NCBI GenBank assembly: GCA_024275575.1
Contig: JAJRYV010000124.1
Location: 1 to 37,363, forward strand
Direction: 5' to 3'
DNA: 37,363 bases
From: a bacterium
Lineage (GTDB): Bacteria; Zhuqueibacterota; Zhuqueibacteria; Zhuqueibacterales; Geothermadaptataceae
The translations under genes were made by a program, and so were the position numbers. Below the pieces are notes generated by a model that had not been told where the DNA came from, did not search any database, and saw nothing but the letters and a program-made list of their open reading frames with translations. Shown here piece by piece: positions 11,302 through 20,357 of the stretch; the first letter of the stretch is position 1, and every line of letters starts with the position of its first letter.

Positions 11302-11664
11302 CTACATTTTCGCCTGTGCGCTTTTGCGTTTATCGCGCTGCAGATACAAATTTCCACGCACGACAACTGCGATATCTGGATAACTTTCCGGGCTGATGAC
11401 CATTTCCAGACGTGAAATCGAAAATAAAAATGCTTGTTTGTCCAGCGATTCGATAAAGCGACCGACATGGCGAAACTGCCCGTTGAACGCCATTTCGATG
11501 GGTAGCAAGATGAGCGGTGATTCGTTTTCCTGAAATCCGCTCTGCAGCAGCTCATCATAACGCGGGTACATCGCTGAAAAATCGACGCGCTGGCTTGTGC
11601 CCACAGCGATCAGTTTTTGTAAAATTTGCGGCACCTGCGAGCGTGCATATATGCGTTTCTGCAA
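11302..11664 (-). CDS. pilO: PilO, C-terminal part (downstream of an in-frame TAA)
   Basis: This is the periplasmic ferredoxin-like domain of PilO, the inner-membrane partner of PilN. It has about 120 residues, including LIAVGTSQRVDFSAMYP, the PIEMAFNGQFRHVGRFIESL segment typical of PilO, and the closing strand VVVRGNLYLQR. It is in the same reading frame as the upstream piece (11680-11886), separated only by a TAA (11680-11682) and five codons. The only start codon near the break is TTG 11664, with no ribosome site. Either pilO is broken by a nonsense mutation or base error, or this domain is made separately by weak reinitiation. The original product would have been about 193 residues, normal for PilO. 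Confidence 0.7.
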   Translation of the reverse strand: MQKRIYARSQVPQILQKLIAVGTSQRVDFSAMYPRYDELLQSGFQENESPLILLPIEMAFNGQFRHVGRFIESLDKQAFLFSISRLEMVISPESYPDIAVVVRGNLYLQRDKRKSAQAKM

Positions 11665-11679
11665 AGCTTTGAGGCTGTC

Positions 11680-11886
11680 TTAATAAAGCGCCAGCGTTTT
11701 TTCAAGCATGATAACCTGTCGCTGTTCAGCTGTTGCCGCCTCAACGAGACGCACCAGGCTATTGATATCACTGCTCAACGTCTCGATCTTTATCTGTTGG
11801 GGGTGAATCACCAGGCCGTAAATTGCCGAGGCGATCGCCAGCAACAAACCGCTGAGAATGAGGATATTTTTTTTCAAACCTTTCAC
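11680..11886 (-). CDS. pilO: PilO, N-terminal part (ends at an in-frame TAA)
   Basis: The 68 residues comprise a short basic cytoplasmic start (MKGLKKN), one membrane helix (ILILSGLLLAIASAIYGLVI) and the beginning of a coiled coil ending EKTLALY. This is the standard N-terminus of PilO. The start is GTG with AAAGGA about ten bases upstream. The TAA after LALY is followed in the same frame by DSLKALQKRIYARSQ, which continues the coiled coil without any gap or frame change. The stop therefore looks like a single substitution, for example from GAA, CAA or AAA. It follows the pilM/N frame by 18 bases. Confidence 0.7.
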   Translation of the reverse strand: MKGLKKNILILSGLLLAIASAIYGLVIHPQQIKIETLSSDINSLVRLVEAATAEQRQVIMLEKTLALY

Positions 11887-11904: not shown

Positions 11905-13305
11905 TCAATAAATACACTCGATGACAAATTCAATGGTACCATCGTCACGCATGCTGCGGTTCATCATCTTTATATCTTTAAAATAACCGGCTTTTTCGAG
12001 TTTGAGAAGGAAATCCGCCAGGTTCAGGCCCTCGCGCGCCTGGTCTGCATGAGCGAGGCCCGACAGCATGATTTTTTCATGGCCTGATTCAACTTCTTTC
12101 GCTTCTTTGCCTTCGGTCACCATCATTTCGGGCTCGATGACCACTGAGCTCAGAGCGATACCTGGGGTAATTAAATGCGAGATCGCTTTCAAATGTGTTG
12201 CCGCTGTCGATTTAACTCTGCCACCGAGGCTGTAGGCACTGATTTGTTTTTTTATTCCATCGATACGCTTTGAAAGCTGCAAATAGCGTTGCCGCACCGG
12301 CTGCAATTCCTGATACTGTTGCTGCAGCAAATGGATATTATCGCTGAACTGGCTTTTTTGAATGGTGACGTAGGATGAAAAAAGGAGGAGAACGAGCATT
12401 GAAAAGGAGCCCATCCAGTTGATGATTTTTTTCGTTTTGCGCAAACGATAGGCGCCTTTCAATTCTGCCGGCAGCAAGTTTAAACCGGCAAAATTATCGA
12501 TGGCCAGCCCCAGGGCGACGGTAAATTGCGGCGCCAGTTGTTGCAATTGCGGAAATCTTTCCCATTTTTGGATGCCGGCCACAGCAAAGGGGTTCAAAAC
12601 GCGGACCTCGGATTCAAGTTCATCACTGAGGAAAGTGTGAAGATTTTTAACCAACGCACCGCCACCACTCAAATAGATGCGGTCGATCTGCCCGATTTTG
12701 TATTTGGAACGGTAATAATCGATGGAACGGCGGACTTCTTTCAGCAAACGGTCGATCACCGGGCGCAGGTTGATCTGAATATCGCGTAACGGTATTTCGC
12801 TTTCAATCGACGCACATTCGGCAGCAGTGAGAATACCGTATTCACTGAGAATGTGAATCGCTTTTTCAGAGCTGATATTTTGGTGGCCGCTGCCGTAGAA
12901 AAATGTCGAGGTGATGGCCTCGATCATTTCATTGCCTGCGGTGGGGATTTCACGATGAAAATCGGCGCGCCCTTTGTTGATGAAAACCATATGCGAACGT
13001 GTGGCGCCGATCTCAATCACCAGAATGCAGGTCCTTGCCGCGGTCTTCAGCCGCGAGATGACGCTCCAGATCGCCACCGGCGCGGCGGTCAATTTTGCCG
13101 GTGTCGCATTGATATTGCGAAAGAGTTGCAGTGATTTGTCGACCACGGGTTGCGGTGTTACCAATGCAGCTACTTCGATTTTTTCCACTGCACCGGGTTT
13201 TTTCATCCCGAGAATCTGATAATCCAGTTCTGCATTCTCTATCTCAAACGGCAGGTCTTTGCGCACCGCCCAGCGGACGGCTTCGGTCAGCTCTTTTTTG
13301 TTCAT
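11905..13305 (-). CDS. pilM: PilM (C-terminal portion) fused to PilN
   Basis: The first ~275 residues are the rest of the actin-like ATPase PilM: VLVIEIGATRSHMVFI phosphate-binding strand, RRSIDYYRSKYK, IDRIYLSGGGALVKNL and ending VALGLAI. Without a stop it continues into a PilN-type protein: NLLPAELKGAYRLRK, a membrane helix (~305-322), a coiled coil and a periplasmic ferredoxin-like domain to residue 466. The combination copies the layout of GspL of type II secretion. The ATG at 13305 lies 9 bases after a TAA, and the preceding codons (LP before MNKKEL) fit the PilM consensus. Translation therefore probably began far upstream in the original gene. No ribosome site is seen before this ATG. 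Confidence 0.75.
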   Translation of the reverse strand: MNKKELTEAVRWAVRKDLPFEIENAELDYQILGMKKPGAVEKIEVAALVTPQPVVDKSLQLFRNINATPAKLTAAPVAIWSVISRLKTAARTCILVIEIGATRSHMVFINKGRADFHREIPTAGNEMIEAITSTFFYGSGHQNISSEKAIHILSEYGILTAAECASIESEIPLRDIQINLRPVIDRLLKEVRRSIDYYRSKYKIGQIDRIYLSGGGALVKNLHTFLSDELESEVRVLNPFAVAGIQKWERFPQLQQLAPQFTVALGLAIDNFAGLNLLPAELKGAYRLRKTKKIINWMGSFSMLVLLLFSSYVTIQKSQFSDNIHLLQQQYQELQPVRQRYLQLSKRIDGIKKQISAYSLGGRVKSTAATHLKAISHLITPGIALSSVVIEPEMMVTEGKEAKEVESGHEKIMLSGLAHADQAREGLNLADFLLKLEKAGYFKDIKMMNRSMRDDGTIEFVIECIY

Positions 13306-13314
13306 TTTCGGCAG

Positions 13315-14187
13315 TTAGAGCACGCGATAAATTACCTCAATTCCGGCGATGCCGCCGACGAGCCAATCCCCGGGTTTGATCTTCGGCAGCAAAAAATCAC
13401 ATGTTTGCAACAGCCGGGCATTTTCGCTGTCGGATTCATTATCGAAAACCGTATCCTGCCCAAATTCGATTTTATCGTATTCGACGAGGGTCATTTTTTT
13501 AGCCAGTAACGAAATGCTGACGCTTTTGGTCATCGCCATACTGGTATCGATACCGATATTCGTCGGCCCGCTCAGAGATTTTTGCAGCCAGTTCAGCAAG
13601 CGCCGGAACAAACCGTCTTTCTTTGTGTTTGCGGGTAATTTTGTAAAATCGGGCGCTGCTTCTGTCATAATTTCATCCGGCACAACAGGAGGCATCTCGA
13701 GCGTTTCGCCGTGCGGAGTGGAAAATGGTGTTACCCCCGGTATTTCTTTGAGCCCGGTCTGATCTGTTTCAACGGGTACGATATCCGGTGTTTTGCCAGA
13801 CTCGCCTTCGGCGAACTTCAAACCGAAATTCCCGCTTGTATCCGCATCGTCCCCTGTGGATTGTATGGCAAAATCCGCGTCCAATGCCGTTTCGTGAGTT
13901 GTTTTATCCTGCGGAATTGTCACCGATGATGGCAATTCGTCTGTGCTTACAGCAGTGAAATCTTGCTCATCCGGCAAAATGACAGGTTGCGAGCCGGCAA
14001 ATGTGGGTGAATCGGCAAAGGCTGGTTCCGTTTCTCCGGTGGCAGGGTTGGAGAGAAGAAAGTCGAGGTCGGCATCGCCCGGGGCGGATTCGGGCGGAGC
14101 GCTCCCCTGTTGTGTTGGATATTCTGCGGCGCTGTGACTTGCGGAAAGGAATTCCAGGTCATCGTGTTGTTGAGAAATTTTTTCCAT
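13315..14187 (-). CDS. pilM: PilM N-terminal portion with a long acidic extension (ends at in-frame TAA)
   Basis: Residues 1 to ~190 are acidic, Pro/Thr/Ser-rich and probably disordered. They include recurring short motifs of the form D-L-[ED]-F-L (near 10-14 and 40-44) and DADFAIQ (~103-109). A basic amphipathic stretch (LFRRLLNWLQKSL) follows. The actin-like PilM fold begins at NIGIDTSMAMTKSVSISL (210 on). The frame ends in GIEVIYRVL-TAA; after the stop the same frame reads LPKMNKKELTEAVRWAVRKD, which is exactly how PilM proteins continue. The stop at 13315-13317 therefore splits one gene of about 760 codons. The gene starts 8 bases after the ecfA-like stop, with no clear ribosome site. Confidence 0.75.
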   Translation of the reverse strand: MEKISQQHDDLEFLSASHSAAEYPTQQGSAPPESAPGDADLDFLLSNPATGETEPAFADSPTFAGSQPVILPDEQDFTAVSTDELPSSVTIPQDKTTHETALDADFAIQSTGDDADTSGNFGLKFAEGESGKTPDIVPVETDQTGLKEIPGVTPFSTPHGETLEMPPVVPDEIMTEAAPDFTKLPANTKKDGLFRRLLNWLQKSLSGPTNIGIDTSMAMTKSVSISLLAKKMTLVEYDKIEFGQDTVFDNESDSENARLLQTCDFLLPKIKPGDWLVGGIAGIEVIYRVL

Positions 14188-18714: not shown

Positions 18715-19932
18715 TTACATCCTTTCCGGGGTTGAAATGCGCAGAATATTCAGGCCGTTGACCAGCACTGTGCGCGTGGCTTCGAGCAGCATCATCCTCG
18801 CCTGACTCAACGGCATATCATCCGTCACCACACGGTTGTTGTGATAAAAGCTGTGGAAAGCGGCAGCGACTTCCATCAGATAGGCCGGCAAATGGTGCAC
18901 TTCCATCACACGGGCGCAGGCGCTGACGATTTCCGGGAATTCATGCAATTTTCGTATGAGGGCGATTTCTTCAGGTGCGACAAGCAGGGAAAGATCAGCA
19001 TCGTTGGTTAGCTCCAGTCCGTTTTCTTTCGCGTATTGAATGACGTTAACGATGCGTGCATGGGCATATTGTACATAATATACCGGATTTTCATCGCTGC
19101 GTTTTTTTGCCAGATCGATATCAAAATCGAGAGGCGAATCGAGTTTGCGCATAACGAAGAAAAAGCGCGCCGCATCGATGCCGACTTCCTGTACTACCTC
19201 ATCCATTTCGATGATATTGCCCGCACGTTTGCTCATTTTGACTACCTGGCCGTCGCGCAGCATGTTGATCTGTTGAATGATGCGGACGTTAAAATTTTCT
19301 TTGGCATGACCCAGCGCCTGCAAAGCTGCTGAAACCCGATCGATATATCCGTGGTGATCCGGCCCCCAGAGATCATACAGCGTCGCAAAACCGCGCTCAA
19401 ATTTATTTTGATGATAAGCGATATCGACCATAAAATACGTTGGTTCGCCTTCTTTTGTCAGCAAAACCCGGTCTTTTGCGTCGCCGAATTGCGATGACTT
19501 GAACCACAGCGCGCCATCTTTTTCATAGGTGAGATTTTTTGCTTTCAGTGTTTCGACGATTGCAAAATGGGCATTTTTTTCGCGCAAACTGCTTTCAAAA
19601 AACCAGGTTTGATAATCGACACGGTAGTTCGTCAACGCCTTTTGATGCAGAGTGATCATTTTTTTGAGCGCTAATGCGGCGAGGGCGGTTTGCCGCTGAT
19701 CATTCTGCATCCCGACAAATTTGTCGCTGTATTCGTTTTTTATTTCCTCTGCAAGGCTGACGACATATTCGCCCTGATAGCCATCTTCAGGCACGGATTC
19801 ATTTTTGCCGAACAAATTCATATAGCGGGCGGCTACCGAGGCGCCGAGCAGTCGTACCTGTTTGCCGGCATCATTGACATAATACTCCCGCTCAGCCGAA
19901 AACCCGACTTTGTTAAGCAATTCCACCAGCAC
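18715..19932 (-). CDS. argS: Arginyl-tRNA synthetase, catalytic core and C-terminal part (frameshifted gene)
   Basis: This is the downstream part of argS. It contains EREYYVNDAGKQV, VLLTKEGEPTYFMVDIAYH, WGPDHHGYIDRV, the KMSKRAGNIIEMDEVV loop and the anticodon-binding alpha-helical domain ending in NGLNILRISTPERM. The frame is in fact open further upstream, to 20043, and there reads GRGKRINIEFVSANPTGP followed by LNVVSARAAATGD. The M at 19932 is therefore an internal codon, not the true start. The upstream part is in another frame (see 19968-20357). Where class I synthetases of this type have H-x-G-H this one has N-V-V-S, while KMSK is intact. Confidence 0.85.
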   Translation of the reverse strand: MLVELLNKVGFSAEREYYVNDAGKQVRLLGASVAARYMNLFGKNESVPEDGYQGEYVVSLAEEIKNEYSDKFVGMQNDQRQTALAALALKKMITLHQKALTNYRVDYQTWFFESSLREKNAHFAIVETLKAKNLTYEKDGALWFKSSQFGDAKDRVLLTKEGEPTYFMVDIAYHQNKFERGFATLYDLWGPDHHGYIDRVSAALQALGHAKENFNVRIIQQINMLRDGQVVKMSKRAGNIIEMDEVVQEVGIDAARFFFVMRKLDSPLDFDIDLAKKRSDENPVYYVQYAHARIVNVIQYAKENGLELTNDADLSLLVAPEEIALIRKLHEFPEIVSACARVMEVHHLPAYLMEVAAAFHSFYHNNRVVTDDMPLSQARMMLLEATRTVLVNGLNILRISTPERM

Positions 19933-19967
19933 ATCACCGGTGGCAGCGGCGCGGGCGGAAACGACAT

Positions 19968-20357
19968 TCAGCGGCCCGGTGGGGTTGGCACTGACAAATT
20001 CGATATTGATTCTTTTGCCCCGGCCCCAGTCGTCATCGCCATGTTTTCTCCGGCAGTGATAATTTCTGCGATCGTATTTTGCCAGTAAGATTTTTTCAGA
20101 ATGAAATTGATAAAACCCGGGCCGTCCACTGTGATTTTTTTGACTAATTCTTTATCATCGGTGAAATTATCGACCAGCGTTTCTGCGATGTTGCGCGGCG
20201 CCTGCCGCAGGGTTTTCGCCAGCCCGAGGGCCACGGTCGTGGCGAAATCACCCCATGTTTCCTGGCGTGGTTTCTCGATGATCACCCGTGTTTCGGTATC
20301 GTATGCCTTCTTTAAAGCCGCCTCGATTTGTCCGGCAAGGTAGAGATCAATCTTCAT
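19968..20357 (-). CDS. argS: Arginyl-tRNA synthetase, N-terminal part (frameshifted gene)
   Basis: From ATG 20357 (AGGAA upstream) this frame encodes the N-terminal Add1 domain of ArgS: MKIDLYLAGQIEAALKKAYD, ETWGDFATTVALGLAKTL and VDGPGFINFILKKSYWQ. After ITAGEN it loses the ArgS pattern and runs into unrelated residues. Restoring one A in the A4 run at 20044-20047 (written as T's on the plus strand) rejoins it to GEKHGDDDWGRGKRINIEF in the downstream frame. The intact gene would be 18715-20357, about 547 codons, normal for ArgS. The start overlaps the rsfS stop by 11 bases. Confidence 0.85.
   Translation of the reverse strand: MKIDLYLAGQIEAALKKAYDTETRVIIEKPRQETWGDFATTVALGLAKTLRQAPRNIAETLVDNFTDDKELVKKITVDGPGFINFILKKSYWQNTIAEIITAGENMAMTTGAGAKESISNLSVPTPPGR

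Follow-up and report, generated by a model that had tools for sequence, protein, structure and literature searches.

The locus examined here raises the question of whether a pilM gene that is interrupted by an in-frame stop codon in its deposited sequence is also interrupted in the living cell. The window, the whole 37,363-nucleotide stretch of DNA that was analyzed, carries a TAA on the minus strand at 13317..13315, where the codons read GTA ATT TAT CGC GTG CTC TAA CTG CCG AAA ATG AAC AAA. As the first-pass annotation had stated, the stop is present in the deposited letters and the open reading frames on either side of it, 14187..13315 (290 aa) and 13305..11905 (466 aa), are in frame with each other; the ATG that it had placed nine bases past the stop is also there, in that same frame (13305..13303, minus strand). 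When the stop is read through, the gene spans 11905..14187 on the minus strand and comprises 760 codons.

Profile searches place the read-through frame above the curated cut-offs of two PilM families, with 137.8 bits for TIGR01175 (residues 211-564; cut-off 133 bits) and 104.9 bits for Pfam PilM_2 (PF11104; cut-off 27). By itself, the downstream half matches PilM_2 at profile positions 85-340 only and the upstream half gives no family-profile match, so the stop cuts through one family domain, at a position that aligns to Gln94 of Thermus PilM (PDB 2ych). The joined protein begins with a ~200-residue N-terminal extension, which is probably disordered; the PilM domain follows at about 211-566, and the remainder is a PilN-like tail that opens with an LNLLP motif and continues into a hydrophobic segment. 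The assignment to pilM is thus sustained for the domain that the TAA interrupts and needs amending for the gene as a whole, which is not a plain pilM but a PilM-PilN fusion with a long N-terminal extension. The read-through protein resembles the solved PilM proteins (2ych, 3jc8, 5eou) in passing both family cut-offs and in aligning with them across the stop, but differs from them in its interrupted frame, its extension and its fused tail. The Amuc_1101 family of PilM-like proteins (NF045709) may have a similar longer architecture, as its match covers residues 275-655, ~90 residues beyond the PilM domain; at 107 bits against a cut-off of 650, the gene is not assigned as a member. A second PilM_2-family match in the same genome (contig C52, 36846-37439) lies in an uninterrupted 324-aa frame and possibly stems from another pilus or secretion system.

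PilN, PilO, PilP and PilQ functions are all represented in the neighborhood. The secretin domains of PilQ exceed their cut-off in the Pfam search, and the PilN-like tail, pilO and pilP, which have no Pfam match, are assigned by position and synteny with a sister genome of the same genus (20 contigs, 98% complete). Single long frames (732-995 aa) that match both the PilM and the PilN parts occur in the sister, in the family and in several other families of the class; judged from these sequences, the fusion therefore looks ancestral.

The same site was then compared in relatives. In the sister genome the frame stays open for 741 aa (EVIYRILELPKMNKKEL) and reads GAA (Glu) at the stop site, where four further genomes from the family read GCG, ATG, GCG and AAC. 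More distant homologues encode Gln, Lys, Glu, Arg, Leu, Ala, Val or Ser, and no stop occurs at the site in the sister or in any of the 17 further homologues, all of which carry a sense codon. The unbroken frame across the actin-like domain, absent from the deposited sequence, is accordingly present in the sister and in other relatives. This comparison with the sister had been proposed in the first-pass annotation, which named GAA, CAA or AAA at the site, in reads or relatives, as an outcome that would refute a true split; GAA is what the sister shows. In the divergence from the sister by codon position, the part of the gene downstream of the stop behaves much as the uninterrupted neighbors do and the upstream part is only somewhat more diverged, third codon positions being the most changed throughout. 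Purifying selection thus appears similar on either side of the stop, with no sign that pilM is decaying.

The interruption of pilM is one of several in this assembly. A second in-frame TAA (11682..11680, minus strand), opposite Glu in the sister, lies in the pilO-like gene that follows pilM-pilN (11302..11886, minus strand), and argS (18715..20357, minus strand) is frameshifted where one base is missing next to an A-run (about 20040-20050). The missing base, near 20044, splits argS into two frames, the downstream of which passes the argS cut-off, and this is the only arginyl-tRNA synthetase family match that a profile search recovered from the genome. About 0.86 Mb of the genome was then compared with ~1.9 Mb of the sister, giving 205 kb of aligned coding sequence. 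Four internal stops in this alignment were judged genuine (window 13317 and 11682, contig C20 20305 and 65228), all of them TAA and all opposite Glu; the stop at C20 20305 lies inside a muramoyltetrapeptide-carboxypeptidase-like gene. The other stops listed for the genome were set aside: some precede gene starts, and the rest belong to a stretch rich in insertions or to the argS frameshift. In the reverse comparison, with the sister as target, no sister stop was judged genuine; the hits were located ahead of gene starts, close to the ends of genes or within a short weak match.

Scans based on codon content added further cases. A first codon-score scan was weak (antisense frames scored too), and a phase-aware coding-potential model was used instead; it revealed stops inside a uvrD/pcrA helicase gene (TAG) and flgI (TAA), while the earlier, weaker scan had pointed to a TAA in an M1-like peptidase gene. 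The relatives' copies of all three genes are open across the stop sites. One stop was reported in the sister's uvrD match, and it probably lies upstream of the start of the sister gene, because the match reaches into the linker of the query and the open frame extends over 736 aa. The corresponding residue is Glu in the PcrA structures and Ser in those of FlgI. Histidine-kinase ATPase (HATPase_c) domains include two matches with an in-frame stop in this genome (C136:5383-5697, TAG; C49:16975-17292, TGA) and none in the sister among the matches listed; ABC-transporter domains contain no stops in either genome. A further one-base deletion was found near a T-run at ~49.8 kb of contig C20, and another frameshift candidate (L115) was discounted for its low identity. 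Similar lesions are therefore found across the assembly, essential single-copy genes included. With two stops in 29 kb of the window against four in 205 kb overall, their clustering is a ~11% event by Poisson, so decay specific to the pil operon is not indicated.

Six stops (pilM, pilO, C20 20305, C20 65228, uvrD/pcrA and flgI) were scored for the base change that each implies. The site is Glu in five of the six and Ser in the sixth (flgI); in one step, Glu becomes a stop always by G>T, and Ser becomes TAA only by TCA>TAA (C>A). Provided that each arose in one step, all six fit G:C>T:A, against an expected share of ~30% for random nonsense changes under the genome's own codon usage, or 25% when transitions are given twofold weight (p about 8e-4 or less, for a test chosen post hoc with n = 6). 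Among G:C>T:A nonsense changes no single outcome is more frequent than GAA>TAA (40%), and the predominance of TAA at Glu sites thus follows with no need for recoding. The position at a border of the fold that the first-pass annotation assigned to the pilM stop looks coincidental, since the other five scored stops sit at unrelated places in five other genes.

Together, these results lead us to consider it probable that the TAA is a base error in a draft, and probably metagenome-assembled, genome; on the strength of sequence comparison, it is most likely neither a genuine feature of the living cell nor the mark of a split protein. An ancestral Glu codon would have become TAA by a single-base G:C to T:A change in the consensus. 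The change belongs with other single-base lesions across the genome, namely nonsense changes that all fit G>T or C>A and one-base homopolymer deletions, and the likely source is either low coverage by reads or 8-oxoguanine formed by oxidative damage as the DNA was handled. Error is favored because a living cell is expected to have an intact argS and because the lesions are spread over unrelated genes, a pattern from which we infer that the organism itself lacks these changes. The real gene would then most probably encode an ordinary, uninterrupted PilM-PilN fusion. Artefactual G>T and C>A changes originating from 8-oxoguanine are documented (PMC5994075; PMC12390751), and assembly errors are possible even in high-quality metagenome-assembled genomes (PMC9677465). 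The likeness to such base errors lies in single-base lesions that are dispersed among unrelated genes, essential ones included, and in nonsense changes that all fit G:C>T:A and are absent from relatives; the difference is that the lesions here are known from consensus letters, not at read level. Metagenomic origin is suggested by the same-family records, which are metagenome-assembled genomes labeled candidate division KSB1 and Bacteroidetes. Counting against error, the observed stops require a rate of about 5e-4 per eligible site, which is high for a well-covered assembly, and the completeness (97.7%) and contamination (1.1%) of the assembly look good.

The first-pass annotation had offered a one-base nonsense change, a sequence error, readthrough or a true split as explanations, and only the first two are sustained. 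The stronger competitor to a consensus error, although clearly the less probable of the two, is that the nonsense mutations are real, private and of very recent date, so that the sampled strain or population truly has broken pilM and pilO genes; its mutation spectrum may be biased toward G:C to T:A. A single base change from the relatives' Glu codon suffices for this, many bacteria can do without pilM and pilO, and a G:C>T:A bias also fits failed repair of 8-oxoguanine. Against it, the only argS found and a uvrD/pcrA gene are broken as well, which together a living cell could hardly tolerate, and no relaxed selection is seen. A repair-deficient mutator is likewise not indicated, because mutM and a mutY-size gene are uninterrupted.

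It is very unlikely that PilM is truly split, with stop-restart coupling producing two separately translated pieces that then reassemble. The in-frame ATG nine bases past the stop would serve such a restart, but it encodes the ancestral Met of an L-P-K-M motif that is also present in the unbroken sister gene, so this Met was not gained as a start. No Shine-Dalgarno-like element was found before it (TTATCGCGTGCTCTAACTGCCGAAA), whereas one does precede pilO (AAAGGATAAAAATACAGTG). Moreover, no relative has a split gene, and the same type of stop occurs in unrelated genes with no evident restart.

Readthrough, or partial reassignment of UAA/UAG to Glu, appears slightly less probable still. It would account for the replacement of Glu in five of the six scored stops and for the conserved sequence 3' of the stop, but TAA is not avoided as a terminator; it is the commonest one and ends 57 of the 117 co-terminal orthologue pairs shared with the sister. 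Both tRNA-Glu genes found match those of the sister at 100% and have the anticodon TTC. An ochre form of the tRNA-Glu anticodon arm was searched for and only the unmutated tRNA-Glu was found, which leaves no candidate for a suppressor tRNA-Glu; among the tRNA-Glu genes and the part of the other tRNA species covered, none could read UAA as Glu. The flgI stop is at a Ser site, no codon that a single G>T change turns into a stop is in any case commoner than GAA, and recoding leaves the argS frameshift unexplained. The sister genome contains a selenocysteine tRNA (anticodon tca; L081, 11246-11341), and TGA may be read as selenocysteine in the genus, which is irrelevant to the TAA in pilM. Least probable of all is that the stops are real and tolerated, with a bacterium that still terminates most genes at TAA inserting an amino acid by readthrough at many UAA/UAG codons of ancestral Glu sites.

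The main value of a consensus error as the preferred reading is one of caution, as the assembly is rich enough in nonsense changes and homopolymer deletions to mislead. Apparent split genes, pseudogenes and losses of pilus, flagellar or tRNA-synthetase function in this assembly need to be checked against reads or relatives. Were the stops true, they would represent an unusual case in which nonsense codons are tolerated.
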